A DNA stretch of 64,000 nucleotides from Streptomyces sp. MA5143a (lineage in GTDB: Bacteria; Actinomycetota; Actinomycetes; Streptomycetales; Streptomycetaceae). Every line of letters starts with the position of its first letter. Position 1 is the stretch's first letter. The stretch is from NCBI RefSeq assembly GCF_900290235.1, contig NZ_OLMK01000046.1, positions 1 to 64,000 on the forward strand, read 5' to 3'. The notes beneath the pieces are model-generated. The model searched no databases, had not been told where the DNA came from, and saw only the letters and a program-made list of their open reading frames with translations. This document shows, piece by piece, positions 31,496-46,972 of this stretch. The position numbers and the translations under genes were made by a program.

Positions 31496-34063
31496 CTAGC
31501 CGATGACCCGGCCCAGTTCGATGCGGTCGATGTTCGGGGCCCAGGCGGTCGCGTTGGCGAAGGCGACCTTGTTGGGGCCCTTCCTCAGGTCGACGGGGAC
31601 GCCGACGGTCCAGTAGTCGTCCCCGCTCCAGGTGTTCTTGAAGGTGACCTTCCGTGGGGCACCGGTGCCGACGGTGATGTCCGCCGTGCGGGACATGATG
31701 TCGGTGTTGTAGGCGTGGCCGTTGTCCCGGCGGTCGTTGTGGGCGTAGTGGACGACCAGTACGTAGCGGCCGGCGGTGGGCGCGTCCACCGTGAACTCCG
31801 CCGCGCTGTCGGCGCTGTTGCCGAGCCGGCCGATGTAGGAGCCGGTGGAGGCGTGCGCCGAGTCGACCAGCCCGGCCCCGCCGGTGAGCGTGGCGGCGGC
31901 GGCCCCGTAGGAGAGGGCGCCGTCGGACGAACCGTCACCGCGGACGTCGAGGGAGCGCACGGCGGAGTGCTTGGCGGTCGTCTCGATCCGGTTGTTGCCC
32001 GCGACGAGGTACAGCTTCAACGGACGGCCGGGCACCGCCGCCACCGTCTGCCCGTGCAGGGCGAGCCGCACCGGCGCCGACGCGCGGGGCACCACCCGGT
32101 AGTAGCCGTCGCGCGGGGCGTACACGTCGAAGACCGCCTTGTCGCCGGGGCCGAGGACGAGGGCGCCGGTGCCGACGCCGGCCGACGAGGAGTAGTCGTA
32201 CGACGGCCTGCCGCTGATGTCGGCGAGCGTGGCCTCGTAGGAGGCGGCGGGTGCCGCGGTGCGGGCGGTGAGGTCGATCCGGTCGAGGGTGACCTCGGCG
32301 GCGCCCTTGGCGAGGGTCAGGGTGTGGCTGCCGGCCGACAGCTCCACGCGGACGTCCTTCTTGGCGCGGTAGGTCCAGTTCTCGGTGGAGGGGTACGTGA
32401 CCGTGACCGGATCGCCGCCGTCGATGGACAGTTTCTGGGTGGCGGGGGCGCCGGACTGGTTGCCGTAGAGGATCGCCAGGTCGTAACGGCCGTCCTCGGG
32501 CACGGTCACCGTGAAGTCGACCTTGCTGCCCGCCTGGTTGAGGGAGCCGACGTCCTTGGTGCCGGAGGCGGCGTAGCCGTTGGCGTTGCTCACGGTGCCC
32601 TGGGTGTAGACCTTGCCGTCGGTGACGGCGGCGTCCTCGGCCTCGTAGGACGCGGTCCAGGGCACGGTGGGGGCGGCGGGGGTGCCGGAGCCGCCGGGGG
32701 TGAGGACGATCCGGTAGGCGGACATCCGGTGCGGACCGCGCAGGGGGACGGTCACCGTGCCGTCGTCGGCGACCCGTACCTTCGTGCGGGCGAGGACGCG
32801 GGGCGTGGCGTGCTGTCCCTCGTAGCCGGACCAGGCGGCCTCGGCCACGGTCGCGGTGACCGTACGGCCGAAGAGGGACCGGGGGACCTCGCGGACGACG
32901 ACGTCGGTGTCGCCGGCCGATCCGCCCAGCAGGACCTGGGCCTGGCGGCGGGAGGTGTCGAGGGAGGCGAGGCCCTGAAGGGTGTCGATGGTGTTCGCCC
33001 GCGGCGGGGTGACCTTCACGGTGTCGCCGGTGAGGCCCGCGTACCAACGGAAGAACCACCAGCCGCCGTTGGGGATGTTGGAGCGGACGACGTTGCCGTC
33101 CATGTTCCCGGCGGCGTCCCAGTACGCCTGGTTGGCGTACACCTTGTTCCTCTCGAACATCGAGACCCACTGCACGAGCTGGCCGGGGACGGACAGATCG
33201 CGGCGGTTGGCGTACTCATCGATGTTGATCTTCAGCGGGGCGATGCCCAACTGCCGTTCCAGGGACCGGTAGTCGTCGTAGTGGCCCTGGAAGTCACGGA
33301 GCGAGCCGGAGCCCAGTTCGTGCCAGGTCATGATCTGCGGCAGGACGTCCTCGCGCTGGGCGAAGGCGAGGAAGTCCTTCAACAGCCTGGTGTGGTACGA
33401 GGCTTCGTTGGGGCCGGCGATCCGCGCGCCGGGGTCGACGGCGCGGATGCGCTGGTACACGGTCTTCCAGTCCCGGAAGAACCGGTCGCGGTTCTTCTCG
33501 TACTGGGCCTGGTCGGCGACGTCGAGCTTGTACCAGATCTGATCGGGCTCGTTGAAGGGGACGTAGACGAAGCGGTCGCTGTTCGGGTCGGCCGCGATCT
33601 CCTCGGCGATCCTGTCGACCTTGGGGAGGTAGTCGTCGATGCCGAGGTCCTCGTAGGGCCACTTGGCGTAGATGTCCTGCATCATCACGTTGATCTCGCC
33701 GCCGCCGTTGCGGAAGAACGACTTCGACACGGTCAGCGCGTCGCCGTTGGGGTGCTGGGCGCCGCCCTCCGGCTTCTGCGAGATGCTGGTGATCTTCAGA
33801 GGGGCGAGGGCGGCGTCGCTGGGCACCCCGTCGTCGCTGAGCCCGTACAACGCGCCGTTGGCGCCCCGCATGACGGGCCCCTCGGAGGCGGAGAGGTCGA
33901 CGGTGAGGCGCTGCGGGTCCGCGGCGGCGGCCGCGGGGGCCCCGGAGGCGGGAAGGGTGCCTGCCATGGCGGTGACTCCAAGGACTGCGGTGATCAGGGC
34001 GGTTCGCGCCCGGGACCTGATGCGGGTTCGTTCACGGGCACGTGTGCGGGTGGGGGTGATCAC
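31496..34063 (-). CDS. Secreted clan GH-A glycoside hydrolase with C-terminal carbohydrate-binding modules
   Basis: An 855-residue secreted protein, signal peptide after an Arg-rich start and cut near AAA before residue 50. The catalytic part (about 50-400) looks like a clan GH-A barrel related to GH39: the acid/base segment YVPFNEPDQIWY (E172) and a nucleophile segment KINIDEYANRR (E283) are at the expected strands. A CBM35-like β-sandwich follows (ASYEAEDAAVTDGKVYTQG..., about 470-605), then a second pair of sandwich domains (YIGRLGNSADSAAEFTVDAP and VHYAHNDRRDNGHAYNTDI). The substrate cannot be named. I chose the GTG at 34063 because GGAGG is 9 bases upstream. It lies 16 bases after the stop codon of a truncated sugar-permease gene, so it was once the last gene of a transporter operon. 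Confidence 0.78.
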   Translation of the reverse strand: MITPTRTRARERTRIRSRARTALITAVLGVTAMAGTLPASGAPAAAAADPQRLTVDLSASEGPVMRGANGALYGLSDDGVPSDAALAPLKITSISQKPEGGAQHPNGDALTVSKSFFRNGGGEINVMMQDIYAKWPYEDLGIDDYLPKVDRIAEEIAADPNSDRFVYVPFNEPDQIWYKLDVADQAQYEKNRDRFFRDWKTVYQRIRAVDPGARIAGPNEASYHTRLLKDFLAFAQREDVLPQIMTWHELGSGSLRDFQGHYDDYRSLERQLGIAPLKINIDEYANRRDLSVPGQLVQWVSMFERNKVYANQAYWDAAGNMDGNVVRSNIPNGGWWFFRWYAGLTGDTVKVTPPRANTIDTLQGLASLDTSRRQAQVLLGGSAGDTDVVVREVPRSLFGRTVTATVAEAAWSGYEGQHATPRVLARTKVRVADDGTVTVPLRGPHRMSAYRIVLTPGGSGTPAAPTVPWTASYEAEDAAVTDGKVYTQGTVSNANGYAASGTKDVGSLNQAGSKVDFTVTVPEDGRYDLAILYGNQSGAPATQKLSIDGGDPVTVTYPSTENWTYRAKKDVRVELSAGSHTLTLAKGAAEVTLDRIDLTARTAAPAASYEATLADISGRPSYDYSSSAGVGTGALVLGPGDKAVFDVYAPRDGYYRVVPRASAPVRLALHGQTVAAVPGRPLKLYLVAGNNRIETTAKHSAVRSLDVRGDGSSDGALSYGAAAATLTGGAGLVDSAHASTGSYIGRLGNSADSAAEFTVDAPTAGRYVLVVHYAHNDRRDNGHAYNTDIMSRTADITVGTGAPRKVTFKNTWSGDDYWTVGVPVDLRKGPNKVAFANATAWAPNIDRIELGRVIG

Positions 34064-34079
34064 GCGGTCGGACCTCCGG

Positions 34080-34187
34080 TCAGTTGACGGCTCCACTGGT
34101 GATTCCGGACACGATCTTTCGCTGGCCGACGAGGAACACGGCGACCATCGGCAGGCTCGTCGCCACGACGTACGCGAGGACGAGATG
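34080..34187 (-). pseudogene. 3' remnant of an ABC sugar permease (MalG type)
   Basis: On the minus strand the frame reads LVLAYVVATSLPMVAVFLVG then QRKIVSGITSGAVN and a TGA stop. This is the characteristic end of MalG-type sugar permeases: two hydrophobic halves around LP, then Q-R and G-x-T-x-GA-V. The intact permease in this window ends comparably (MALLPVAVLSPFVQKHFKKG, then MLTGAIKG). No initiation site, membrane domain or EAA loop remains. The sequence is cut off by the LacI terminator hairpin at 34197, so the binding-protein gene, the other permease and most of this one were deleted. Confidence 0.75.
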
Positions 34188-34196
34188 CCGGTGAGG

Positions 34197-34220
34197 CGGT
34201 CCGGCGCGGGCGCCGGACCG
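34197..34220 (-). terminator. Hairpin after the second LacI gene
   Basis: A perfect 10-bp stem (CGGTCCGGCG with CGCCGGACCG), four-base loop, starting two bases after the LacI stop codon. It also marks the left edge of the permease remnant. Confidence 0.7.
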
Positions 34221-34221
34221 G

Positions 34222-35259
34222 TCAGACGCGGGCGGGCGGCGGCCCCGAGCTCTCCCGGACCACCAGCTCCGGTACGGAGACCCGGTGCGGGGCGATCGGG
34301 GCGGACTGCTCCAGGACGCCGTACAACAGGGCGAACGCGGCCCGGCCGAGGCCGGTGAAGTCCAGGCGCGCGGTCGTCAGGGACGGGGTCAGATACGCGG
34401 AGTGCGGGGCGTCGTCGAAGCCGGCCACGCTGACGTCGCCGGGAACGGACCGGCCGTTCTCGTGCAGGGCGCGGAGCACACCGAGCGCCAGGTCGTCGTT
34501 GCCGCAGAGGATCGCCGTGACCGAGGGGTCCTCCGCCAGTTTCCGGCCGGCGCGGTGGCCACCCGCCGGGCCCCAGTTGCCCTGGAGCGGGCGTGGTTCG
34601 GGCGCCCCCGCCTCCCGGAGCGCCTGCCGCCAGCCGGTGGTACGGGCGCTGGTGCGGCGGGTGCTGGACGGGATGGCGACGTAGTGCACGGTCTCATGGC
34701 CGAGGGAGAGCAGATGGCGGGTGACCGCGTGCGCGGCCTCGCGGTCGTCGGTCCACACCCACGGGCGGTCGCCGTCGGGCCGGGTGGCCGGGGTCTCGAC
34801 GACACCGACGACGGGCAGCTCGGCGGGCACGGCGGCCAGGGCGCCGACACCGGCCGGATCGTAGGCGATCACGATCAGTCCGCCGCCCGCGTCCGCCGCC
34901 CGCCGCACCTCGGCGGCGACGACCGCCTCCTCCGCCGACTCCAGGACGCCGATCCCGACCGCGTACGACGCCGCGCGGGCCGCCTCCTCGACGCCCTGGA
35001 GGATCGACGCGTAGCCGTAGTGGGTGGTGTTCGCGGTCAGCACGGTCACCGCGCGGCTGCGGCCGCTGGCCAGGGCCAGTGCGGTCGCGTTGCGGCGGAA
35101 GCCCAGCTCGTCGATGGCCGCCAGCACCCGCTCCCGCGTGGACTGCTTGACGCTGGGGTGGCCGTTGATCACCCGCGAGACGGTCTGGTACGAGACACCG
35201 GCGGCGGTCGCGACGTCCCGGATACTCGCGGGACGCCTTGTGTGACCGGTCACCATCAT
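34222..35259 (-). CDS. LacI-family regulator (second), predicted leaderless
   Basis: A 345-residue LacI-type repressor. The helix-turn-helix is SIRDVATAAGVSYQTVSRVI with hinge VLAAIDELGFRRNATALALA, followed by an effector domain (AVTVLTANTTHYGYASILQGV; CGNDDLALGVLRALHENGR; SVAGFDDAP). I start at ATG 35259 although the frame opens at a GTG (35280). A TTGACG/CACAAT promoter points to transcription starting at about this ATG, and no Shine-Dalgarno sequence is visible. The operator lies over the -10 element, so it probably represses itself and the divergent GH36 gene. The transporter operon it once controlled is mostly deleted (see 34080-34187). Confidence 0.88.
   Translation of the reverse strand: MMVTGHTRRPASIRDVATAAGVSYQTVSRVINGHPSVKQSTRERVLAAIDELGFRRNATALALASGRSRAVTVLTANTTHYGYASILQGVEEAARAASYAVGIGVLESAEEAVVAAEVRRAADAGGGLIVIAYDPAGVGALAAVPAELPVVGVVETPATRPDGDRPWVWTDDREAAHAVTRHLLSLGHETVHYVAIPSSTRRTSARTTGWRQALREAGAPEPRPLQGNWGPAGGHRAGRKLAEDPSVTAILCGNDDLALGVLRALHENGRSVPGDVSVAGFDDAPHSAYLTPSLTTARLDFTGLGRAAFALLYGVLEQSAPIAPHRVSVPELVVRESSGPPPARV
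35241..35254. promoter_or_regulatory. Operator copy A, TGTGACCGGTCACC
   Basis: GTGACCGGTCAC palindrome inside the first codons of the LacI gene, centred 27 bases from copy B. Confidence 0.65.
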
Positions 35260-35265
35260 GTCAGG

Positions 35266-35294
35266 ATTGTGACCGGTCACACTGGGAGCGTCAA
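35266..35294 (-). promoter_or_regulatory. Promoter of the second LacI gene
   Basis: TTGACG (35294-35289) is followed after 17 bases by CACAAT (35271-35266) on the minus strand. It is overlapped by operator copy B. Initiation about seven bases downstream would be at or next to ATG 35259, giving a leaderless mRNA. Confidence 0.55.
35268..35281. promoter_or_regulatory. Operator copy B, TGTGACCGGTCACA
   Basis: A perfect 14-bp palindrome in the LacI/GH36 divergent region, overlapping the LacI -10 element. Pairing with copy A (spacing 27, off one helical phase) suggests cooperative binding. Confidence 0.75.
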
Positions 35295-35409
35295 GAGAAC
35301 GTCAAGCGGGATTCCCGCGAGCGACCGCCCCCCGCGAGGATCTGGACCGCCCGCCGGCGACGGCCCGGGGGCGGCGTGCGTGAGCGCGGCGGCTCGGGAG
35401 GGCAGCGAC

Positions 35410-37674
35410 TTGACCAGTACGGCGGACCGGACGGCGGACGCCTCCACCACCTCCTCCCCGACGTTCGGTTGGGGGCATCCGGCGCTGCGCGCGGAGTTCG
35501 CCGCGGCGGCGGACGGCACCCCGCGTCTGGTCCGGCTGGGCCCCACCGGGACCGCCGTCGATCCGGAGGTCGCCCTGCCCCTCGTCGAGTTGACGGCGGT
35601 CGGGCACGGGAGCGGCTGGTCCGGGCCCCGGTTCACCGGCACGGCTCTCGGGTCGCGGCTCGCCTACCGCGGGCACCGTGACGCCGGCTCCTCCGACTGG
35701 GCTCGGCTGACCGTCGAACTCCACGACCCGGTGACGGCGTTGACCGCCTTCGTCGAGCTGACCTCCCCGATCGGGCTGCCGGTGCTCCGCTCCCGGGTGC
35801 GGCTCCGCAACGACGGCACGGACCCCCTCGTCGTGCAGTCCGTCAGCAGTCTCCTCCTCGGCGGGCTGCCCTCCCCCGATGTCCTTGACGTCCACCGGGC
35901 CCGCAACGACTGGCTCGCCGAGTGCCGTTGGTACGCCGAACCGTTGCGCGACAGCGTCGCCGACATCGGCGTCGACGCCCACCAGCACGACAGCCGGGCC
36001 GCGCTCACCCTCACCGGGCGCGGCAGCTGGCCCACCGACGGTCATCTGCCGATGGGGGCGCTGACGGAGCGGGACGGTGGCCGGGCCTGGGTGTGGCAGG
36101 TGGAGTCACCGGTCGGCTGGCGCTGGGACCTGGGCGAACGAGCGCACGGCACCTACCTCGCGCTGAACGGCCCCACGGACGCCGAACACCAGTGGCGGGT
36201 GCGGCTGGCGCCGGGCGAGGAGATCACGACGGTGTGGGCGGCGGTCGCGACGGGGGCTGACACCGGGCAGGGGGCGGGGGGCGGCTCGCCGGAGGCTGAC
36301 GCCGGGCTCGGCTCCGGTGCCGACTCGACCGCGGCCCCGGCGGCCGACCGGGCGGGGCCTTCGGTGCCCTCTCCGGGCGTCGGCTCGGCGCTCGACGCGG
36401 CGTGGGCAGCCATGACCGCGTACCGGCGGGCCGTGCGGCGGCCGCATCCGGACCATGGCGCGCTGCCCGTCGTCTTCAACGACTACATGAACACGCTGAT
36501 GGGCGACCCGACCACCGAGAAGCTGCTGCCGCTGATCGACGCGGCGGCGCGCGCGGGCGCGGAGTACTTCTGCGTCGACTCCGGCTGGTACGACGACACC
36601 GTGGACGGCGGCTGGTGGGACGGCGTCGGCGCGTGGCAGCCGTCGACGCGCCGCTTCCCCGACGGCGGCATCGAGGCCGTGCTGGACCGGATCCGGGAGC
36701 GCGGGATGGTGCCGGGGCTGTGGCTGGAGCCGGAGGTCGTCGGCGTGCACAGCCCGGTCGCCTCGACGCTCCCCCCGGACGCCTTCTTCCAGCGGGACGG
36801 CGTACGGATCACCGAGCAGGGCCGCCACCAGCTCGACCTGCGCCACCCCGCCGCCCGCGCGCACCTCGACAGGACGGTGGACCGGATCGCCGGCGACTGG
36901 AGCGTGGGCTATCTGAAGCTGGACTACAACATCGTCGTCGACCCGGGCACGTGCGCCCCCGGCGACCTCTCCCCCGGCGCCGGGCTCCTCGGCCACGCCC
37001 ACGCCTACCTGGAGTGGCTGTCCGACGTCCTGGACCGCCACCCCGGGCTCGTCGTCGAGAACTGCGCCTCCGGGGGCATGCGCATGGACGGCGCCACCCT
37101 GGCCGTCGCCCAGCTCCAGTCCCTCAGCGACCAGCAGGACCCGCTGCGCTTCCCCGCGATCGCCGCCGCCGCGCCGACGGCGGTCCCGCCGGAACAGGGC
37201 GCCGTCTGGGCCTATCCGCAGCCCGGGTTCGACGACGACCTGATCGGCTTCACCCTGGGCGGCGCGCTCCTCGGCCGCATCCATCTCTCCGGCCATCTGA
37301 ACCGGATGTCGGAGCGCCAACTCGGGCTCGTCCGCGACGCCGTGGACACGTACAAGTCGATCCGCGGGGACCTGGCGCGGGCCGTGCCCTTCTGGCCGCT
37401 CGGTCTGCCGGGGTGGGCGGACCCGTGGCTGGCGCTGGGCCTGCGGGTGCCGGAGGGGCCGTCGTACGTGTCGGTGTGGCGGCGCGGCGGGGAGGCGGAC
37501 GTGTCGCTGCCCCTCGGCCACTTGGCGGGCCGCGATGTGCGTCCGGAGATCCTGCACCCGTCCGCGGGAAGCGGCGGCTCGGTGGTCTGGAACCGGGACG
37601 GGCACACGCTGCGGGTGTCGCTCCCCCGCACCCCGACCGCCCTGCTGATCCGCCTCCACGCCGGGACCGGCTGA
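35410..37674 (+). CDS. GH36 α-galactosidase
   Basis: Hydrolyses terminal α-galactosyl residues. The 754-residue protein has the N-terminal β-supersandwich (TFGWGHPALRAEF, WSGPRFTGTALGSRLAYRGH split) and the barrel with VVFNDYMNTLMGDPT and EYFCVDSGWYDDTVDGGWWD. The nucleophile strand is SVGYLKLDYNIV (D505) and the acid/base segment VENCASGGMRMDG (D560). The C-terminal domain is all-β. No signal peptide is visible, so it is cytoplasmic. An Ala/Gly/Ser-rich insert of about 45 residues (281-327) joins the N-domain to the barrel. I take the TTG at 35410, which has GGGAGG upstream; GTG at 35380 is an alternative. It is divergent from LacI and probably repressed by it. Confidence 0.85.
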   Translation: MTSTADRTADASTTSSPTFGWGHPALRAEFAAAADGTPRLVRLGPTGTAVDPEVALPLVELTAVGHGSGWSGPRFTGTALGSRLAYRGHRDAGSSDWARLTVELHDPVTALTAFVELTSPIGLPVLRSRVRLRNDGTDPLVVQSVSSLLLGGLPSPDVLDVHRARNDWLAECRWYAEPLRDSVADIGVDAHQHDSRAALTLTGRGSWPTDGHLPMGALTERDGGRAWVWQVESPVGWRWDLGERAHGTYLALNGPTDAEHQWRVRLAPGEEITTVWAAVATGADTGQGAGGGSPEADAGLGSGADSTAAPAADRAGPSVPSPGVGSALDAAWAAMTAYRRAVRRPHPDHGALPVVFNDYMNTLMGDPTTEKLLPLIDAAARAGAEYFCVDSGWYDDTVDGGWWDGVGAWQPSTRRFPDGGIEAVLDRIRERGMVPGLWLEPEVVGVHSPVASTLPPDAFFQRDGVRITEQGRHQLDLRHPAARAHLDRTVDRIAGDWSVGYLKLDYNIVVDPGTCAPGDLSPGAGLLGHAHAYLEWLSDVLDRHPGLVVENCASGGMRMDGATLAVAQLQSLSDQQDPLRFPAIAAAAPTAVPPEQGAVWAYPQPGFDDDLIGFTLGGALLGRIHLSGHLNRMSERQLGLVRDAVDTYKSIRGDLARAVPFWPLGLPGWADPWLALGLRVPEGPSYVSVWRRGGEADVSLPLGHLAGRDVRPEILHPSAGSGGSVVWNRDGHTLRVSLPRTPTALLIRLHAGTG

Positions 37675-37793: not shown

Positions 37794-38528
37794 TCAGCCG
37801 CTGCTGACGGTCAGATTGTTGGTCTGGAAGTTCAGGCCGCCGGACGACGAGGTGATCTCGAAGCCGAACTGCACGTCACCGATGGTCTCGTTGCCCATCC
37901 AGCCCTTGGTGTCCTTGAGCCACTTCAGGACGGGCAGGATCTGGACCGAGCCGGACGTGGAGTCCGCCGTCCGCAGGAAGGAGAAGACGTCCCAGTACGT
38001 GCCGTTGCTCCGGTACACGCGGCCCTTGTGGACGTTCCAGTTGTGGCCGCCGAGCGTCACGTTGCCCTGGTAGTCGCCGAGTGCGCCGACCGCGCCGTTG
38101 TAGTTGACCCAGAGCATGATCTCGTAGTCGTGGTCCGTGTCCCAGACATCGTACGAGGTGTTGTACGCGCCCGAGGACGGGACCGTGACGTTGTAGTTGC
38201 TGTTGAGCGAACCGAGCGAGGTGATCGACTTGTTGATCACCTTCTTGGAGTTGGGGTACGACTTGATGCCGCCGGTGTTGGGGTGGTTGGCCCAGACACC
38301 CCAGTTGGTGCCGGAGTTGGCCCAGATGCACTGGCTGCCGGCGCCGCCGCCCCAGATGTTGTTGTAGAGGGTGTAGCCGCCCAGGCTGGTGTTGCCCCAC
38401 TGGTCACAGCTGTTCCAGACGGCGGCGGAGGCGGGGGCGGCGGCGAGACCGACGGTGGCGCCGAGCGCGAGCGTGGGGGCGAGCAGGACGTTGCCGATCC
38501 TGCTCCGGGTGCGGGTGCGTAGTGCCAT
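37794..38528 (-). CDS. Secreted GH12 endo-β-glucanase/xyloglucanase
   Basis: Cleaves β-1,4-glucan backbones. The 244-residue precursor has a signal peptide (MALRTRTRSRIGNVLLAPTL..., cut after ASA near residue 35) and a single GH12 β-jelly roll beginning AVWNSCDQWGNTSLGGYTLYNN (split). The retaining residues are E136 (DYEIMLWVNY) and E224 (FGFEITSS). There is no carbohydrate-binding module. A good ribosome site (GGAAGGAAAG) precedes the ATG. GH12 includes both endoglucanases and xyloglucanases, and the sequence does not decide which. It lies downstream of the GH74-GH42 pair on the same strand after a hairpin. Confidence 0.93.
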   Translation of the reverse strand: MALRTRTRSRIGNVLLAPTLALGATVGLAAAPASAAVWNSCDQWGNTSLGGYTLYNNIWGGGAGSQCIWANSGTNWGVWANHPNTGGIKSYPNSKKVINKSITSLGSLNSNYNVTVPSSGAYNTSYDVWDTDHDYEIMLWVNYNGAVGALGDYQGNVTLGGHNWNVHKGRVYRSNGTYWDVFSFLRTADSTSGSVQILPVLKWLKDTKGWMGNETIGDVQFGFEITSSSGGLNFQTNNLTVSSG

Positions 38529-38569
38529 GGCTTTCCTTCCACGGGTGGGGGGAACTGCGGGGAGGATCA

Positions 38570-38594
38570 CCACGCCCCTGTGGGGAGGGCGTGG
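38570..38594 (-). terminator. Hairpin after the GH42 gene
   Basis: CCACGCCC pairs with GGGCGTGG, nine-base loop, 56 bases past the GH42 stop and upstream of GH12. A GH12-specific promoter is therefore possible. Confidence 0.5.
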
Positions 38595-38649
38595 TCTTCT
38601 CCGGCGAGCGGTGGGAGCGGCTCAGCGCCGGAAGAAGTCTCGGACTCGG

Positions 38650-40638
38650 TCAGGGTGCGAGCACCGCCGCCCCGTACCGTCCGAGGGACAGCGGGCCGGT
38701 GACCGTCGTGCCCGTCAGGAGGTCGCGGTGGGTGCCCGGCACCTCGACGGTGGCCTCGTCGCGGCCGTGGTTGAGCAGGAAGAGGACGTCTCCCCTGCGC
38801 ACCGCCTCGACCCCGTCGGGCAGCCCGTCGAGCACCGGCCGCACCCCGGCTCCGTCGGCGATCCGGGTCAGCAGCGCGCGCAGCGCGGCGGGTTCGGGCA
38901 GCGTGGAGACGTACCAGGCGCGGCCCTTGCGCAGCACCGCCGGAAGGCCGTCGAGTTCACCGCCCCGGTAGGGGATCACCTCGTCCGCGTCGGCCGCCTC
39001 CAGCTCCTCGGACCACAGCGTGCCCCGGAAGCCGTCGCAGCGGACCTCCTCCCCGGCCTCCAGCGGCCACCACTCGTGCAGGGTGCGGATGCCGAGGAGA
39101 TCGCGGAGCCGGGCGTCCATGCCGCCGGGTCGGACCCGGTCGTCCTCGTCGGCGACTCCGGTCTGGAAGCCGCAGACGAGGGTGCCGCCGCCGCGGACGT
39201 GGGCGACGAGGTTCTCGACGGCGGTGTCCGTGAGGAGGTAGAGCTGGGGGACGACGACGAGCCGGTACGCCGACAGGTCGTGCTCGGGGTGGGCGAAGGC
39301 GGTGGTGAGGTGGGCCTCCCAGAGGGCGCGGTGCCAGTCCCGGACGACCTGGGGGAGGTCCACCTCGGACGACAGGCGGCCGTCCTGCGCGCCGGCCCAC
39401 CAGGAGTTCCAGTCGAACAGCACGGCGACGTCGGCGGTGAGGGGCCGGCCGGACACCTCGGCGCCGATCGCGGCGAGGTCGGCGCCGAGCCGCTTGACCT
39501 CCTGGAAGGTGCGGCCCTGCTCGCCCGCGTGACTGACCATCCCGGAGTGGAACTTCTCCGCGCCCTGCCGGGACTGCCGCCACTGGAAGTAGCAGACGGC
39601 GTCGGCGCCGCGGGCGACGGCCTGGAGGGACCAGAGGCGGTTCAGCCCTCGGGGCTTGGGATGGTTCACCCCGCGCCAGTTCACGGGCCCGGCGGCCTGT
39701 TCCATGAGCACCCAGGGGCCGCCGCCCGCCTGCGAGCGGGTCATGTCCTGGATGAGCGCGCCGTGCTGGGCGCCCAGCGGGTCACGCGGGTCCGGGTACA
39801 GATCGACCGAGACGACGTCCTCCTCCTCGGCCCAGCGCCAGGCGTCCTGGCCCACCCACAGCGGCATGAAGTTGGTGGTGACCGGGATGTGGGGGGTGTG
39901 CCGGCGGACGATGTCGCGCTCCATGACGTAGCACTCCAGGAGCATGTCGCTCGTGAAGCGCTTGAAGTCCAGCACCTGGGTGGGGTTCCTCATGTAGTGG
40001 GCGCGGCGGGGCGGGAGGATCTCGTGCCAGCCGTCGTAGCCCTGGCTCCAGAAGGCCGTCCCCCAGGCCTCGTTGAGCGCGTCGAGCGTGCCGTACTTCC
40101 GGCGCAGCCAGTCGCGGAAGGTGGTCGCGGCCTCGTCGCCCCAGTCGTAGGTGCAGTACTCGTTGTTGATGTGCCACAGGGTGAGGGCGGGGTGGGAGCC
40201 GTAGCGGGCGGCGAGGTCCTCGGTGATGGCGGCGGCGTGACGGCGGTAGACGGTGCTGGAGTGCGAGAAGTGCTGGCGGGAGCCCCACCACTCGACCTGC
40301 CCGTTCTCGTCGCGCGGGAGGGTCTCGGGGTGGAGGCGGCCCATCCACGGCGGTGGGGAGGAGGTGGGGGTGGCGAGGACGACCCCGACGCCGTGCTCGT
40401 GCATCAGGTCCATCAGGGTGTCCAGCCAGCCGAACTCCCGGGCGCCGGGCCGGGGTTCGAGCTTCGCCCAGGAGAAGACGCCGAGGGTGACGGAGTTGAC
40501 ACCCGCCTCCTTCATGAGGCGGACGTCCTCGTACCAGACCTCCTCGGGCCACTGCTCGGGGTTGTAGTCACCGCCGAAGAGGAGCCGGCCGCGGGTGGCG
40601 TCGGCGAGGGTGGGCCCGGTGTGCCGCCGCCGGGTCAT
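38650..40638 (-). CDS. GH42 β-galactosidase
   Basis: Hydrolyses terminal β-galactosyl residues. The 662-residue protein has the GH42 start LLFGGDYNPEQWPEEVWYED, the acid/base strand TLWHINNEYCTYDW (E160), the nucleophile strand PWVLMEQAAGPVNWRGVNH (E313) and the trimerisation and C-terminal β domains (YFQWRQSRQGAEKFHSGMV). No signal peptide, so cytoplasmic. Its ATG overlaps the GH74 stop (ATGA), coupling a cytoplasmic enzyme to a secreted one. In xyloglucan degradation this activity would trim galactose from imported oligosaccharides. The true start is at 40638; the longer frame upstream is the GH74 gene's shadow. Confidence 0.94.
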   Translation of the reverse strand: MTRRRHTGPTLADATRGRLLFGGDYNPEQWPEEVWYEDVRLMKEAGVNSVTLGVFSWAKLEPRPGAREFGWLDTLMDLMHEHGVGVVLATPTSSPPPWMGRLHPETLPRDENGQVEWWGSRQHFSHSSTVYRRHAAAITEDLAARYGSHPALTLWHINNEYCTYDWGDEAATTFRDWLRRKYGTLDALNEAWGTAFWSQGYDGWHEILPPRRAHYMRNPTQVLDFKRFTSDMLLECYVMERDIVRRHTPHIPVTTNFMPLWVGQDAWRWAEEEDVVSVDLYPDPRDPLGAQHGALIQDMTRSQAGGGPWVLMEQAAGPVNWRGVNHPKPRGLNRLWSLQAVARGADAVCYFQWRQSRQGAEKFHSGMVSHAGEQGRTFQEVKRLGADLAAIGAEVSGRPLTADVAVLFDWNSWWAGAQDGRLSSEVDLPQVVRDWHRALWEAHLTTAFAHPEHDLSAYRLVVVPQLYLLTDTAVENLVAHVRGGGTLVCGFQTGVADEDDRVRPGGMDARLRDLLGIRTLHEWWPLEAGEEVRCDGFRGTLWSEELEAADADEVIPYRGGELDGLPAVLRKGRAWYVSTLPEPAALRALLTRIADGAGVRPVLDGLPDGVEAVRRGDVLFLLNHGRDEATVEVPGTHRDLLTGTTVTGPLSLGRYGAAVLAP

Positions 40639-42866
40639 CGGAGCGGGTCCCCGTACTGGATGCCGCGGCCGTTCGTCGCCACGTAGACGCGGCCGTACAG
40701 CCGCGGGTCGCCGGCGATGGCCTCGCCGGTCCAGCCCCACTGGTGGGCGTCGTCGTTGACGCGGGTCCATGTCCGCGCGCCGTCGTCGGAGCGGAGGACG
40801 GCGGTGAGGCTGTCGACGGCCCCGATCTGGTAGATCGCCGGGTAGGCGGCGCCGGGCGCGGCCTTGCCGAAGCCGAGGACGTGCGAGGCGCGGCAGCCGG
40901 CGACCTTGGTGAAGGAGGCACCGCCGTCGGTGGACCGGTACAGGCCGTTCGTCTTGGTGCTCAGCCACAGGTCGCCGGTGCGTCCCGGGGCCGCGGCCAG
41001 CTTGTACTGGCTGTCCCCCGAGGGCAGACCCGTCGCGCCCGCCGTGAAGGAGCGGCCGCCGTCGGTGCTGGCGTACACCGTGCCGGTGTCCGTGTCGTAC
41101 GCGTAGAAGCGCGTCGCGTCCGCCGGGTCGGCGACCGGGGTGGCGCCCTTGGGGAAGGTGGGCACCTCGTCCCAGGTCGCACCGCCGTCGCCGGAGCGAT
41201 GGGCCGCATACCTGGTGCCGTCCCAGTGGACGAAGGACCAGATCAGCACGGTCGCGTCGGTGTTGACGGCGATCGGTCCCGGTGCGTCCTTGGCGAGGGC
41301 GGGCTGGCTCCCGAAGGGCGCCCATGTCCGCCCGCCGTCGTTCGAGAAGGCACCGTTGCCGTGGTCGCCCCAGCCGGTGCGGACCACGTACGACGGCTTC
41401 CTCGCGGCCAGCGCGAGGCCGGTCGCCGACCCGAACACGGGGTTCGTCGCCATGCCGCGCGACGGGGACGCCGTGAGCCGCTCGTGGTACATCGTGCCGA
41501 TGTCCCCGAGCCCGCTGATCAGGTGCGCCTGTCCGACGGGCGGCGAGATCAGCTGGCGCACGGCGGTCTCCTCCAGCCCCCGGATCCGCGGCGCCCAGTG
41601 CCTGAGGTCGCGGGTGCCGTAGAGGGTCGCCCCGGTGCCGTACACGACATGCTTCGAGTCGTACGGGTCGAGCGCCAGCGCCTGGATCCACCAGCCGAAC
41701 TTTGGCTTGTCCGCGCCCCACTTGAGGTAGGGGGTCTCGGACACGTCGAGGACGGCGGAGTCCTTCAGGGAGGTCCAGGTGCGGCCGCCGTTCGTGGAGC
41801 GGAAGACCGTGTCGATGTCCGCCCAGCGGTTGTTGGTCGACACGACGACGGTGCCGGGGCAGCGGGCGTCCACGGCGACGCCGCCGTAGCCGAAGGCGTC
41901 GGCGGAACCGTCGGCCGCCGTGCCGCCCGGCTTCACCGGGGTGACGTCGGTCCATGTGCCGCTGGTGGTGCGCAGCTTGTGCACACTGCCGTCGGACTGC
42001 CCGTTGGGGCCGGGCCCGTTGGCGTACGTCACGTACAGCTCACGCGCGTGCCGGTCGTACGCGGCGCGGATCGGGACCTTGGCGGAGGCGCCGACCGGCT
42101 GTCCGGGGACCGCCTCCCAGGTGGTGCCGTCGGTCGTGCGGTACAGGTTGGCCGTGGCGGTGGTGCCGTCGCCGTCGCCCCAGCCCGCGTAGAGGGCGCG
42201 GCCGGCGGCGACGAGCAGGGTGACGCCCTGTCCGGTGGCGGTGGGTGTGGCCGGGAAGCCGGTGGCCCTCGCCCAGGTGGCGCCCCGGTCCGTCGACCTG
42301 AGGAGGCCGTCGTGTCGGGTGCCCAGCCACAGGGTGTCGCTGTCCCGGGGGTCGACGAGCAGGCGCTCGCCCGTGCCCCGGCCGTCCTCGTTGCCGCCGA
42401 GCTTCACGGTGAGGTCGGTACGGGTCCAGGTGGCGCCCCGGTCGTCGGAGCGGAGGATCGCGCCGTTGCCGGCCCAGGACTGGGTGTAGGTGCCGAGGGC
42501 GAGGTAGACGCGGTTCGGGTGGGCCCGGTCGACGGCGATCGCCTCCACACCGAGGAGGTTCCAGTCGTCCCAGCCGAGGTGGTCGGTCAGCGGGGTCCAG
42601 CGGGCCTTGCGGTCGTCCCAGCGGTAGGGGCCGCCGATGTCCGTGCGGGCGTAGGCGAGGCCGCGGACGGAGGGGTGGAACAGGACGCCGGTGATGAAAC
42701 CGGTGCCGCCGATCACGGCGGTGCGCCAGCGGTAGCCGCCGGCGGTCGGGCCGTTTCGAGCCTCGGTGGCGTGGGCCGGGGTGGGGAGTGCGGGGAGGGT
42801 GGTGAGGGCTGCTGCGGCTGTGGTCGCGGTGAGTAGGGTGCGGCGGCTCGGGTGGGGCGTGCGCAT
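40635..42866 (-). CDS. Secreted GH74 xyloglucanase
   Basis: Endo- or oligo-xyloglucan hydrolase of 743 residues with two β-propellers. The Tat signal is MRTPHPSRRTLLTATTAAAA... with a cut after AHA near residue 30. The first propeller opens with YRWRTAVIGGTGFITGVLFH and DIGGPYRWDD, a GH74 hallmark. Repeats such as STDRGATWARA and STDGGRSFTA mark the blades. The end, VYVATNGRGIQYGDPL, is also typical. The inverting acids are aspartates; the first lies in ARTDIGG. No dockerin or CBM is present. GAGG precedes the ATG at 42866. It is the first gene of GH74-GH42 and is preceded by a repeat-filled 378-base gap. Confidence 0.94.
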   Translation of the reverse strand: MRTPHPSRRTLLTATTAAAALTTLPALPTPAHATEARNGPTAGGYRWRTAVIGGTGFITGVLFHPSVRGLAYARTDIGGPYRWDDRKARWTPLTDHLGWDDWNLLGVEAIAVDRAHPNRVYLALGTYTQSWAGNGAILRSDDRGATWTRTDLTVKLGGNEDGRGTGERLLVDPRDSDTLWLGTRHDGLLRSTDRGATWARATGFPATPTATGQGVTLLVAAGRALYAGWGDGDGTTATANLYRTTDGTTWEAVPGQPVGASAKVPIRAAYDRHARELYVTYANGPGPNGQSDGSVHKLRTTSGTWTDVTPVKPGGTAADGSADAFGYGGVAVDARCPGTVVVSTNNRWADIDTVFRSTNGGRTWTSLKDSAVLDVSETPYLKWGADKPKFGWWIQALALDPYDSKHVVYGTGATLYGTRDLRHWAPRIRGLEETAVRQLISPPVGQAHLISGLGDIGTMYHERLTASPSRGMATNPVFGSATGLALAARKPSYVVRTGWGDHGNGAFSNDGGRTWAPFGSQPALAKDAPGPIAVNTDATVLIWSFVHWDGTRYAAHRSGDGGATWDEVPTFPKGATPVADPADATRFYAYDTDTGTVYASTDGGRSFTAGATGLPSGDSQYKLAAAPGRTGDLWLSTKTNGLYRSTDGGASFTKVAGCRASHVLGFGKAAPGAAYPAIYQIGAVDSLTAVLRSDDGARTWTRVNDDAHQWGWTGEAIAGDPRLYGRVYVATNGRGIQYGDPLR

Positions 42867-43051
42867 GGCATACCTCGGGCGTCGGGAGGGGGGGAGGGGT
42901 TCGTCCGGAGGGGACGGAGAGGGGGCGTCGGGAGGGGTGCGGCGGGAGGGGAGGGAGAGAAGGGCTGGGAGGGGTGCGGCGGGGGGTGCAGGGGCCTCGG
43001 GATGCGGGCTTCGGCGCCTGAGAGCTCGGGGTGCCGGGGAAGGACGGCGAC

Positions 43052-43130
43052 TGCGGGTCGTTCGGGGCCGGTCGCGCAGTTCCCCGCGCCCCTGGAAGGG
43101 CTGCGCCCTTCGGCGGGGCGAGGCCCCGCT
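43052..43130. repeat. Intergenic repeat, single arm with inner hairpins
   Basis: GGTCGCGCAGTTCCCCGCGC (from 43070), followed by two small hairpins (AAGGGCTGCGCCCTT and CGGGGCGAGGCCCCG). It fills the middle of the 378-base gap (42867-43244) between GH74 and the importer, where no gene was seen. Confidence 0.7.
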
Positions 43131-43244
43131 GACACAGGCACCCGGATGGTTCTCGGGCGGAAGGCGCCCGGCCGCTGGGCCCGCCGCGCTCGGCCGGGTG
43201 ACAGGCACGGCCGAACACGGCGGGGGTCTGGCGGGCGGTGCGGG

Positions 43245-44225
43245 TCAGCCCTTGATCGCCCCGGTGAGCATGCCCTTCTTGAAGTGCTTCTGAACGAAGG
43301 GCGACAGGACGGCGACCGGGAGCAGGGCCATCACCATGACGGCCATCTGGATGGCGAGCGGGGAGAGTTGGCCCGTGTTGATCTGGGCCGCGAGGCCGAC
43401 GGGGCGTTCCTGCTTCTGGACGAGCTGGATCATGACGTTCTGCAGCGGCATCATGTCCTGGTCGGTGAGGTAGATGGACGCGTTGAACCAGGCGCTCCAG
43501 TAGCCCACCGCGTAGAAGAGGGCGATGACCGCGAGGACCGCTCTCGACAGGGGCATCACGATCTTCCACAGGATGCGCCAGTCGCCGGCGCCGTCGATAC
43601 GGGCGCTGTCGATGAGTTCCGGGGAGATGCCCATGAAGAACGACCGCAGGACCAGGATGTTGAAGACGCTCACCGCGCTGGGGAGGATGAGCGCGAGATA
43701 GGTGTCGGTGAGGCCGAGGGCCTGGACCAGGAGGTACGTCGGGATCAGGCCCGCGCCGAAGAACATCGTCGCGAGCAGGGTCATCAGGATCCAGCGGTGG
43801 CCGAGGGAGCCCGTGCGGGAGAGGCCGTAGGCGCACAGGACCGAGACGGTCATGCTGAACAGGGTGCCGACGAGGGTGACGCCGACGCTGACCAGCGCGG
43901 CCCGCTGCACCTGGCCGCCGCCGAGGAGTTCCTGGTAGGCGACGAAGGTGATGCTCCTGGGGACGACCACCAGGCCGCCCGCCTCGTCGATGGTCTTCTT
44001 CGTCTGGAGGCTGGTGACGACGACGATCCACAGGGGGAAGAGGATCGCGAAGCAGGCGAGGCCCAGGGCGACGCCCTTGCCCGCGAGTCCCGCCTTGGCG
44101 GGTTCCTCCTCCCAGACGGGGCGGGGTGGGGCGGCCCAGCGGCCCGGCTTCCTGGCGACCGGCCGCCCGTCGGCCGGACGGGCCGCCTTGTCCGCCTTGG
44201 CCGCCTTGTCGACGAGTGCGCTCAT
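43245..44225 (-). CDS. ABC sugar permease, MalG type
   Basis: Inner-membrane permease subunit. The 326-residue protein has six hydrophobic segments, starting at KGVALGLACFAILFPLWIVV near residue 55. It carries the cytoplasmic EAA-like loop DSARIDGAGDWRILWKIVMP (about 225-245) and the MalG-type end MALLPVAVLSPFVQKHFKKG. A 50-residue charged N-tail is unusual but common in Streptomyces. Its ATG overlaps the preceding permease stop (ATGA). With the two upstream genes it forms a complete importer except for the ATPase, which in Streptomyces is usually the shared MsiK. Confidence 0.94.
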   Translation of the reverse strand: MSALVDKAAKADKAARPADGRPVARKPGRWAAPPRPVWEEEPAKAGLAGKGVALGLACFAILFPLWIVVVTSLQTKKTIDEAGGLVVVPRSITFVAYQELLGGGQVQRAALVSVGVTLVGTLFSMTVSVLCAYGLSRTGSLGHRWILMTLLATMFFGAGLIPTYLLVQALGLTDTYLALILPSAVSVFNILVLRSFFMGISPELIDSARIDGAGDWRILWKIVMPLSRAVLAVIALFYAVGYWSAWFNASIYLTDQDMMPLQNVMIQLVQKQERPVGLAAQINTGQLSPLAIQMAVMVMALLPVAVLSPFVQKHFKKGMLTGAIKG

Positions 44226-45259
44226 TTCTTGTACACCCCCTGCTCACCCATGAGATGGGCCACCTTGTTGGCGACCAGGACCAGGGACACGCCGACCACG
44301 CCCTTGATGAGTCCCGCCGCCGCGGCGTAGCTGAAGTCCTGGTTACGGATGCCGTTCCACCAGACGTAGGTGTCGAGGACCTCGGAGGCGTCGACGCCGA
44401 CGGCCGAGCGTTGAAGGAGGAGTTGTTCGAAGCCGACGGTGAGGGCGTCACCGACACGGAGCACCAGGAGCAGGGCGATCACCGGGCGCAGGGCGGGCAG
44501 GGTGATGTGCCACATGCGCCGCCAGCGCCCGGCACCGTCCATGGCCGCGGCCTCGTAGAGGTCGTGGGAGACGGAGGAGAGGGCGGCGAGGAAGACGATG
44601 ATGCCCCAACCGGCGTCCTTCCAGATCATCTCGACGGTGACCAGGTACTTGAAGGCCTCCGGATTGGTCATCAGGTCGAAGCCGTCGACGCCGTGTTGGC
44701 GCAGGGTCTGCGCGATGATGCCGGCACCGCCGAAGATCTGCATGAACACGGTGACGACGAGGACCCAGGAGAAGAAGTGCGGCAGGTACATCACCGCCTG
44801 GGCGACCGCCCGGACCCGGGGCCTGACCACGCTGTTGATGAGCAGCGCGAGCAGGATCGGGACCGGGAAGAACAGCACCAACTGGAGGAAGAACAGCACG
44901 AACGTGTTCCGCACCGCGAGCCAGAAGGCGGAGTCCGCGAAGATCCGCTCGAACTGCTCCAGTCCGACCCAGGGACTCTCCAGCATGGCGACGAAGCCGT
45001 TGTCGCTGAGATAGGGGTCGTAGTCCTGGAAGGCCACCACATTGCCGAGGATCGGTATGTAGTTGAAGACCAGGAGGAGCAGGACGGCGGGCAGCGTCAT
45101 CAGGATCAGCGTGCGGTCGCGCCGGAATCTCAGCCGGAGGTTCAGTCTTCTGACGCGTTTCTCCCCCGGGGGCCGTGACCTGGCGGCGGCATCGGACGAC
45201 GGGGACCGGTCGGGGGTCTTCGCCTCGGCCCTGGGCCGGGGCACCGTGCTGTGGGACAC
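44222..45259 (-). CDS. ABC sugar permease, LplB type
   Basis: Second membrane subunit, 345 residues, six hydrophobic segments (LILMTLPAVLLLLVFNYIPI near residue 55; FVLFFLQLVLFFPVPILLAL). The EAA-like loop is YEAAAMDGAGRWRRMWHITL (about 230-250). The LplB/YteP branch usually works with large oligosaccharide or polygalacturonan-type binding proteins, which fits the 561-residue binding protein encoded 27 bases upstream. It overlaps the MalG-type gene by four bases. Confidence 0.94.
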   Translation of the reverse strand: MSHSTVPRPRAEAKTPDRSPSSDAAARSRPPGEKRVRRLNLRLRFRRDRTLILMTLPAVLLLLVFNYIPILGNVVAFQDYDPYLSDNGFVAMLESPWVGLEQFERIFADSAFWLAVRNTFVLFFLQLVLFFPVPILLALLINSVVRPRVRAVAQAVMYLPHFFSWVLVVTVFMQIFGGAGIIAQTLRQHGVDGFDLMTNPEAFKYLVTVEMIWKDAGWGIIVFLAALSSVSHDLYEAAAMDGAGRWRRMWHITLPALRPVIALLLVLRVGDALTVGFEQLLLQRSAVGVDASEVLDTYVWWNGIRNQDFSYAAAAGLIKGVVGVSLVLVANKVAHLMGEQGVYKK

Positions 45260-45286
45260 GGCCTTCTCCTTGCCTCGGGCCCCGGC

Positions 45287-46972
45287 TCAGCTCGCCGAGC
45301 CGGTCTCGTCGAGCAGCTTCTTGTACCAGTCGCGCAGCTTGTCGCCGCCCTTGCTCTTCCAGTCGGACACCGCCTGCTGGACGTCGCTGATCTTCTTGCG
45401 GCCGCGGACGGTGTCGTCCTCCAGCTGCTCGAAGTTGTCGGCGAGGTTGGCCCAGCGGTTGGGCTCGGTGATGGTCAGCCCGAAGAAGGGGGTCTTCTTG
45501 GTGAAGGCACCCATGCGCTGCTGCCACTCGACGATGCCCTTGGTGATCTCCGGCAGGTCGGGGTAGGCGACGTACGGGGCGGGGTTGCCGGTGTAGTCGT
45601 AGGCGCCGTTGACCTCGTTGACGCCCTGCGTGGTCTTGACCGGCAGGCCCTTCTTCGTCTCGTAGTCCGTGCCCTCGACGCCGTAGGCGGTGAGCATGAA
45701 CTCCTTGGTGCCGTAGGGGGCCGCGCAGTAGTTGCAGAGGGCGAGGAAGTCCTTGATCTGCTGCTTGGTCGCCTTTTTGCTGATGAAGGTGAAGATGCTG
45801 GCCGGCTGACCGGCCCACAGCGTGGGGTCGCCGCCGTCGGGGCCGAAGTAGTCGAACGCGGCCATGTCGAAGTCGGGTTTCTGGGTGCGCTGTTCGGCCG
45901 TCTTGCCCCACCAGTCGGAGATGTTCTGGTTGTAGACCAGCACCTCCCCGGCGGTGAAGCGGTTGCCCGCGGTGCCACCGGCCTTGGTGTTGAGGGCGTC
46001 GGGGTGGACCACGCCGGCCGCGTAGAGCTTGCGCGTCCACTCCAGGGCCTCCAGGTACTCCTCGGTCTCGACGCGGTTGACCAGCTTCCCGTCGACCAGG
46101 TTCCACCACAGCTCCCTGTCACCGCCGGGGAAGACGCCGTAGATGTGGAACGCCGCCCACTTCATGTCGTCGCAGGCCCACAGCTTCGACTTGGCGTCGG
46201 TGGCCTCCTTCGCCCAGGACAGGAACTCGTCGGGGCTCTTCGGGACCTCGTAGCCCTTCTTCCCGAAGAGGTCCCTGCGGTAGAGGGGCGCGATGTTCGT
46301 GACGTACGAGCCGGGCATCGGGATCCCGCGGAGCCGGCCGCCGAAGATGGCGCGCTGCCAGGCCTCGCTGGGGACGGCGGCGAGGTTCGGGTACTCCTTG
46401 ACCTTGTCGCCGGAGAGGTAGGGGCCGAGGTCGGCGAACTTGGCGTTGATGGCGCTGGGTATCTTGCCCATCAGGTTCCAGGCGGGCACGACCACCACGT
46501 CGGGGATGTCGCTGGAGGCGAGGACGGCGCCGAGCTTCTGGTCGTAGGTGATGCCGTCCTGGTTCTGCCAGGTGACATCGACGCCGACAGCTTCGTTCAT
46601 CGCCCTGTAGTAGGGGTTGTCGCCCTTGGGCGGGGTCCCCCAGAACGGCGACATGATCTTCAGGCTGCCGCCGCTGCCCAGCTTCTCCGGGACCGAGGTC
46701 TTCAGGTCGGCCGAGGGGATCGCCTTGGTGAAGCCGGCCGCCGAGCCGTTCTTCGACGGGATGTCGGGCGCCACGACGTTCGACGCGACGAAGGCCGGGA
46801 GGATCTTCTTGGCGTCCTTGCCCGACGTCGTGCCCTCCTTGCGGCCTTCCTGCGAGCCGCCGCAGGCGGACAGCAGGGGAACGCCCCCCGCCACGACGGC
46901 GGTGGCGACCGCCGTGGAGGCGAGGAAGCTTCTCCGGCTCGGGGCGGAGGGGGCGGCGGAGTTCGGCGTCAT
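45287..46972 (-). CDS. Extracellular solute-binding lipoprotein (large, LplA-like)
   Basis: Sugar-binding component of the importer, 561 residues. The Tat-type signal is APSRRSFLASTAVATAVVAG and ends in the lipobox LLSAC, giving a membrane-anchored lipoprotein. The mature part has the long LplA/YtcQ-type fold (IMSPFWGTPPKGDNPYYRAM, DIPDVVVVPAW, RDLFGKKGYEVPKSPDEFL, WAGQPASIFTFISKKATKQQ). The pocket cannot be read, but its size favours oligosaccharides. The gene starts a three-gene importer operon. An exact TCGAAGCGCTTCGA operator is 145 bases upstream (47117), pointing to control by the LacI protein at 24984. Confidence 0.93.
   Translation of the reverse strand: MTPNSAAPSAPSRRSFLASTAVATAVVAGGVPLLSACGGSQEGRKEGTTSGKDAKKILPAFVASNVVAPDIPSKNGSAAGFTKAIPSADLKTSVPEKLGSGGSLKIMSPFWGTPPKGDNPYYRAMNEAVGVDVTWQNQDGITYDQKLGAVLASSDIPDVVVVPAWNLMGKIPSAINAKFADLGPYLSGDKVKEYPNLAAVPSEAWQRAIFGGRLRGIPMPGSYVTNIAPLYRRDLFGKKGYEVPKSPDEFLSWAKEATDAKSKLWACDDMKWAAFHIYGVFPGGDRELWWNLVDGKLVNRVETEEYLEALEWTRKLYAAGVVHPDALNTKAGGTAGNRFTAGEVLVYNQNISDWWGKTAEQRTQKPDFDMAAFDYFGPDGGDPTLWAGQPASIFTFISKKATKQQIKDFLALCNYCAAPYGTKEFMLTAYGVEGTDYETKKGLPVKTTQGVNEVNGAYDYTGNPAPYVAYPDLPEITKGIVEWQQRMGAFTKKTPFFGLTITEPNRWANLADNFEQLEDDTVRGRKKISDVQQAVSDWKSKGGDKLRDWYKKLLDETGSAS

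Follow-up and report, generated by a model that had tools for sequence, protein, structure and literature searches.

Between a lacI-type regulatory gene and the gene for a GH39-like glycosidase in Streptomyces sp. MA5143a lies a short piece of DNA that reads as the end, and only the end, of a sugar permease gene, and it raises the question of what once stood between the two genes, how it was removed and how often the same thing has happened in related strains. The piece was found in a window of 64,000 nucleotides (positions 1 to 64,000 of contig NZ_OLMK01000046.1), which is the whole stretch of DNA analysed here. Operon decay by deletions leaves gene remnants, and taken singly this one is nothing unusual; what makes it interesting is the parallel loss across the genus. 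We consider it very likely that the importer was deleted from a LacI-glycosidase operon, that the enzyme was kept under the LacI transcript, that such losses recurred, and that remnant edges come to lie preferentially at a conserved block near the end of the permease gene.

Results

The remnant and its neighbours

On the minus strand the lacI-type gene is followed after 34 nt by the remnant with its stop codon and, after another 16 nt, by the glycosidase gene (Table 1); the remnant itself reads HLVLAYVVATSLPMVAVFLVGQRKIVSGITSGAVN.

Table 1. Features of the locus, in positions of the window.
Feature	Position	Strand	Remarks
GH39-like glycosidase with CBM35	31496..34063	-	GTG start; signal-peptide-like N-terminus by eye
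Shine-Dalgarno-like GGAGG of glycosidase	34073..34077	-	named by eye
Remnant stop codon TGA	34080..34082	-	16 nt ahead of glycosidase GTG at 34063-34061
MalG-type (CUT1) permease remnant	34083..34187	-	last 35 codons, residues 240-274 of 274
Conserved 41-nt block at permease gene end, with rare A/T-ending codons	34084..34124	-	proposed glycosidase leader
10-bp GC hairpin directly after LacI stop	34198..34219	-	near left deletion junction; no T run
LacI-family regulator	34222..35280	-	LacI 1.5e-19, Peripla_BP_3 3e-34; start as called
Pair of perfect palindromes GTGACCGGTCAC, operator-like	35280-35269 and 35253-35242	-	27 nt apart
Promoter-like TTGACG-17-CACAAT	35266..35294	-	overlaps first operator
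GH36 divergent from lacI	35410..37674	+	nearest to beta-L-arabinopyranosidase model

The first-pass annotation had described about 34 codons that match only the end of a MalG-type permease and carry their own stop codon at a 16-base spacing from the next start, and the match, the stop and the spacing are all as it described them, with coordinates correct to the base. Against the consensus tail of intact relatives the remnant scores 146 by BLOSUM62, and the best other of about 127,800 six-frame windows in the same stretch scores 37, this runner-up being the MalG of another transporter. Identity to residues 240-274 of the intact permease of one relative (L034) is 89%, and a translated comparison of the 34-residue tail with permease C-termini upholds the proposed similarity, giving 82-88% identity for the nearer intact relatives and 71-79% for the five most distant intact loci (L049, L050, L051, L125 and L130). 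Pfam finds no family in the 36 residues of the remnant alone, in which no permease domain is recognisable, and matches the intact L034 permease to PF00528 at 7.8e-18; because the permease end alone survives, the 36-residue piece is treated here as a remnant and not as a family member. The remnant is drifting as a protein: four of its 35 residues depart from the intact consensus, three of them (F to L, M to T and K to N) at positions that are invariant in 48/48 de-duplicated intact loci. The stop codon is mutated in the close relatives L048 and L052.

Residues 50-454 of the glycosidase match PDB entries 8uwt (1.6e-52) and 5u22 (2.5e-50), the latter (N2152) presumably a rumen-fungal GH39, and Pfam adds a CBM_35 match (5e-11). 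In alignment with solved GH39-type enzymes the NEPD motif and the later (D/N)EY motif line up, at positions that we take to hold the catalytic residues. We call the enzyme 'GH39-like' because no GH39 family is among its Pfam matches with E up to 1. Its GGAGG is also seen in many of the relative loci inspected. The divergent GH36 matches Melibiase at 6.1e-28 and NF053652 at 4.7e-152, with a score of 507.6 bits that is under the NF053652 cut-off of 1100; a Gly/Ala/Ser-rich stretch lies within its gene at 36249-36390, and the GH36 match of L048 is split in that region.

The intact operon in relatives

Loci were found through the enzyme, in the genome of the window and 149 other Streptomyces genomes, in 20 regions (18 used) and as the best 80 of 152 named loci, which gave 95 distinct loci once four duplicates had been removed. 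L036 and L039, whose contigs recur as L094 and L113, were left out, and L101, whose contig ends just upstream of the enzyme, was left out of the importer state (the clade counts below are the same without it).

A substrate-binding protein (SBP) gene and both permease genes lie upstream of the enzyme in 63 of the 94 Streptomyces loci with a readable state, and LacI is present as well in 60 of these 63, the contig ending before LacI in L091, L122 and L125. The LacI-SBP-permease-permease-glycosidase operon predicted from the window alone is thus found intact in many relatives; in L034 the importer consists, by Pfam, of an SBP_bac_1 protein and two BPD_transp_1 permeases. Missing from the window are the SBP, permease 1 and all of permease 2 except its end. 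Comparison shows that the SBP and two permeases formerly stood between the lacI-type gene and the glycosidase gene, in one operon, and it bears out the view of the remnant as the trace of a deleted sugar ABC transporter.

Relocation of the importer elsewhere in the genome was considered and rejected. Searches of nine importer-less genomes (that of the window and eight others) gave no SBP ortholog in any of the nine, with best matches of 29-34% identity, and second-permease matches of at most 38% among the matches listed; in intact genomes the SBP search returned 88-100% identity in 5/5. By a cut-off of 55% identity or more, chosen on seeing the list, the enzyme is present in 21 of the 149 other genomes, eight of which have no SBP, and all 13 SBP-bearing genomes have the enzyme; the ratio of enzyme without importer to the reverse is 8:0 (sign test 0.008, relatedness ignored).

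Recurrence of importer loss

On a codon tree of the enzyme, intact and loss loci are interleaved, and the non-intact loci form 18 clades when nodes below 0.8 are collapsed, 17 when the limit is 0.9 and 16 when it is 0.95; with the clade of L105, L106 and L108 set aside, which has a different layout and a divergent LacI, the counts are 17, 16 and 15. The tree thus indicates 15-18 separate losses of the importer within the Streptomyces sampled, with the neighbouring enzyme kept and, in most cases, LacI as well. Fragments of a permease or of the SBP are left in 13 of the 18 loss clades, and the direction of change is therefore loss and not insertion. The DNA of loss loci can be aligned to pieces of the intact operon, to the permease-2 end in many loci and to the SBP leader or an inner SBP piece in L052, L053, L080, L089, L092, L100 and L032.

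Four different junctions are found in the window, in G139 (L048), in S. neyagawaensis (L052) and in Streptomyces sp. HM190 (L053), the enzymes of the last three being 93-97% identical to that of the window. Of the permease, 35 codons are left in the window, about 12 in G139 and 23 in S. neyagawaensis, which also retains an inner piece of the SBP gene, and HM190 keeps 239 permease-2 codons behind the SBP leader and first codons. Since the deletions vary in extent from relative to relative, 'operon loss in progress', as the locus had first been described, is a fair description of the lineage. An assembly error was rejected as an explanation: the deletions differ between species, and several are in genomes of 1-3 contigs.

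The GH36 gene could not be found beside 10 of 23 loss loci, each with at least 8.6 kb of sequence ahead of the start of LacI, and only part of it was seen beside two more, compared with 55 full, two partial and no missing genes beside 57 intact loci (six loci were too short to judge). Importer loss seems often to have been followed by loss of GH36, and part of the order of dismantling would thereby be readable.

A TnpB-type IS605 OrfB gene (PF01385, PF07282) lies inside the former importer region of L032 (L032:6801-8009), and the end of a similar element can be made out by eye at the SBP start of L080. A mobile element may have helped in one or two of the losses (L032 and L080).

A conserved block at the permease end

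Over about the last 13 codons of the permease gene, third positions are unusually conserved among the 48 de-duplicated intact loci (CGA in 43, GGA in 44, AGT in 44 and a second GGA in 45). A/T-ending columns conserved at 70% or more number four in these 13 codons, as against two in the other ~257 permease columns, and the 805 columns of the enzyme have none. When ten-codon windows are ordered by how far they depart from local codon usage, codons 262-271 stand 15th of 1929, and all 14 above them are at the LacI start, where the operators serve as a positive control, or at the SBP start. The end of permease 1, ahead of permease 2, also ranks high, so the conservation may be a general mark of the gene junctions of this operon. 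In the window the 41-nt block is unchanged. Its 27-nt core is single-copy in its own genome, with up to three mismatches allowed, and is found in 37 of 392 genomes of the genus, its own included. The core was rejected as a repeated element, with one match in its own genome and matches in 21 of 293 order-wide genomes, all of the same genus and its own included.

The edges of the remnants also point to this block. Of 13 edges inside the final 120 nt of the permease gene, seven crowd into a single 8-nt stretch, 32-39 nt from the gene end and at the border of the block (p 0.0004), and without L103, a weak remnant, 6 of 12 do so (p 0.003); the edges were taken from local alignments and carry an error of a few nt. 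The clustered edges have different left partners. The core of the block persists where the stop codon has been lost (L048, L052 and L072) and where the frame is broken (L089). RNA folding gives the block no excess of structure (z +0.73 in the window and +0.71 in L034), and no promoter-like site is present in it. As the block has left no trace (at least 20 mismatches in 41) in 14 of the 31 readable loss loci, it is not needed everywhere. We lean towards regarding it as functional, and read it as part of the translation-initiation region of the enzyme.

Operators, promoter and the end of lacI

The operator-like pair (at most one mismatch) that marks the start of LacI, on the side of the divergent GH36, recurs in 59/59 intact and 22/24 loss loci, and such sites are absent from the LacI-SBP gap of 59/59 intact loci. 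A scan of 33900-35450 returned a single promoter-like match, at the LacI start. Two claims of the first-pass annotation find no support here: the glycosidase had been thought to lack its normal promoter, and the only promoter-like site of the region overlaps an operator at the LacI start; LacI had been thought to lack its main target, and the operator pair at its own start persists through nearly all losses. With operators confined to the start of LacI and absent from the LacI-SBP gap, it is probable that the LacI promoter still drives the enzyme, whose gene most likely belongs to the same LacI-controlled transcript. On the simplest reading the lacI transcript would be autoregulated; it would once have reached the enzyme by way of the importer genes, and since the deletion would run straight into the enzyme. 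The true LacI start is probably the ATG at 35259 or that at 35256.

Operator-like sites also cross the LacI stop in the clade of the window, that of L048 with a single mismatch and those of L052 and L053 with two; a second LacI site at this place is conceivable, and we give it no weight. The deletion had been supposed to cut at the LacI terminator, an element that finds no support: a terminator scan found no terminator-like site, and the hairpin after the LacI stop has no T run. The 56-nt stretch that contains this hairpin folds with z -1.86, and by eye none of the three closest relatives has it intact; it could lessen read-through. In the L105, L106 and L108 clade, which is also without the importer, the operator is slightly different (GTGACCGTTCAC) and the LacI is divergent (55-58% identity).

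The enzyme after importer loss

No stop codon interrupts the enzyme match in any of the 95 loci (the contig of L048 ends within the gene). In 19 comparisons of loss and intact sisters, several of which share a sister, the loss side has the higher dN in 16 cases (p 0.0008) and the higher dS in 13 (p 0.10), and the summed dN/dS is 0.28 on the loss sides vs 0.23 for the intact sisters; L048, L052, L047, L101, L102, L103, L105, L106, L108, L110, L112, L114 and L118 are omitted from these comparisons. The values point to purifying selection on the enzyme that is slightly relaxed in loss loci and not gone.

In some relatives the enzyme has been rewired. LacI and enzyme form one open frame in S. griseoruber (L112:8954-12451, 1166 aa) and in Streptomyces sp. 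DSM 15324 (L118:8957-12451, 1165 aa), and a comparison of these two gives a dN/dS of about 0.20 over the LacI part and of 0.43 over the enzyme part, so that both parts are still constrained, the enzyme less. The LacI body is missing from L114, in which the promoter region and start codon are joined in frame to the enzyme (around 9900-10001), with one operator perfect and the other carrying two mismatches by eye; in L100 the first SBP codons lead, without a change of frame, into the sequence of the mature enzyme (around 9900-10001). By eye the signal-peptide region is gone in the LacI-enzyme, L114 and L100 fusions, and fused enzymes of this kind would be cytosolic, that of L112 and L118 being joined to its own putative repressor. 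To our knowledge a LacI-glycosidase fusion is without precedent. In the titles and abstract openings of the papers listed on LacI fusions, arabinogalactan, gene loss and repeated loss, nothing was found on this locus or on such fusions.

Discussion

In the model proposed here, a deletion of about 3 kb would have brought codon 240 of the second permease up against the LacI-SBP spacer (the left edge was placed by eye), leaving behind the last 35 permease codons, the permease stop and the ribosome-binding site of the glycosidase, with the enzyme gene brought directly behind lacI. That remnant edges often fall at a block ~55 nt upstream of the enzyme start is perhaps because the block belongs to the translation-initiation leader of the enzyme. 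What is new here is the codon conservation at the permease end, the clustering of edges there and the LacI-enzyme fusions. It is tempting to go further and suppose that the permease gene end doubles as the enzyme leader and so shapes where deletions end, the importer being repeatedly discarded and the LacI-controlled enzyme kept and sometimes rewired, as in the L112/L118, L114 and L100 fusions, but we put this forward only tentatively.

It is possible, if somewhat doubtful, that the tail is passive debris, left by recent loss through deletions that end at random, and that the block means nothing to the enzyme. Edges also occur far upstream (106, 262, 340 and 674 nt) and beyond the permease end, the block is missing from a good part of the loss loci, and low synonymous change around the 5' ends of genes can be mutational, according to the available part of PMC12725619. 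By eye, moreover, two junctions (that of L048 and that of L089 with L131) can be taken for recombination at a CGAAAG repeat common to the SBP ribosome-binding site and the permease end, which is a partial mechanism, for two junctions at most. Random ends do not, however, sit easily with the crowding of edges with different left partners into 8 nt, nor with a block core that outlasts its stop codon or reading frame. The polarity might also be the reverse, with LacI-glycosidase as the ancestral arrangement and the importer inserted in some lineages, and insertion and transfer could mimic the interleaving of loci on the tree; the leftover fragments, the intact state of the deepest branches (the outgroup L049, L050 and L051, then L125, L130, L122 and L123) and the presence of the same gene set in Bifidobacterium, as given in the accessible part of PMC10688797, make this extremely improbable.

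Two further alternatives concern the consequences and the cause of the deletion. Had the importer operon possessed its own LacI-controlled promoter downstream of lacI, the enzyme would now be unexpressed and LacI bereft of its main target, and the LacI-SBP spacer of about 30-170 nt (12 intact loci) could hold a promoter of a type outside the scan; the imperfect operator-like sites across the LacI stop would suit such an arrangement. We think it very unlikely, given the placing of operators and of the sole promoter-like match at the LacI start, the purifying selection on the enzyme along loss branches and the survival in the window of GH36, divergent from lacI. Nor do we favour, though with less confidence in its rejection, the idea that another importer took over and made the old one dispensable. 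At 43245-46972 of the window, some 8 kb away from lacI, stands a complete SBP-permease-permease set of the CUT1 type, and weak matches to similar permeases are found upstream in the loss loci L055 and L085, but the nearest permease of that set shares 29% identity with permease 1 of the lost importer (161 residues compared), and a takeover seems unlikely.

The Streptomyces CUT1 importer cebEFG stands with cebR under a LacI-type regulator and comprises an SBP, two permeases and an enzyme gene. The locus described here resembles it in having an SBP and two permeases, an enzyme gene alongside and a LacI-type regulator, and differs in that the permease end alone survives in the window and that the operators are at the start of lacI itself. 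Truncated remnants, and relatives caught at different stages, are shared with operon decay in general; unlike it, the same module has apparently been lost 15-18 times with the enzyme kept and the edges clustered at a conserved block.

The nearest functional parallel is the cluster of a GH39 AAfase, GH36, LacI and ABC importer in Bifidobacterium pseudocatenulatum MCC10289, which serves the use of arabinogalactan side chains and is held to import beta-L-Arap-(1->3)-L-Ara released from arabinogalactan (PMC10688797, in the part available; a paper on the rumen-fungal GH39 stands in its reference list). As in that cluster, the intact Streptomyces operon has a secreted GH39, a beta-L-arabinopyranosidase-type GH36, an SBP, two permeases and LacI, the gene sets being compared here with layouts unaligned. 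This set is whole in intact relatives and incomplete in the window, which, unlike the Bifidobacterium cluster, keeps LacI, GH36 and the GH39-like enzyme and has lost the entire importer. By analogy, the lost importer probably carried an arabinose disaccharide, released from plant arabinogalactan by the secreted enzyme and split by the cytosolic GH36. The strain of the window would still secrete the enzyme, with no dedicated importer for its product.

With one module lost 15-18 times, as it appears, from the same slot, the locus amounts to a replicated natural experiment in the dismantling of a pathway. Two questions can be put to the test with it: for what reason a secreted enzyme should persist beyond its importer (as shared goods, or thanks to a second importer), and whether the leader of a downstream neighbour can fix the 3' end of the gene before it. 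The fusions, for their part, join a repressor to the enzyme that it probably controls.

Next to the locus, positions 37794-46972 of the window hold a GH12, a match to an F510_1955 glycosylhydrolase below the cut-off and the complete CUT1 importer mentioned above, and are perhaps a separate plant-polysaccharide locus; the enzyme encoded at 38650-40488 resembles GH42 by eye, and NCBIfam gave no match for it. Farther off, at 19799-22444, the window encodes a SecA-type translocase of 881 aa with SecA domains by Pfam.
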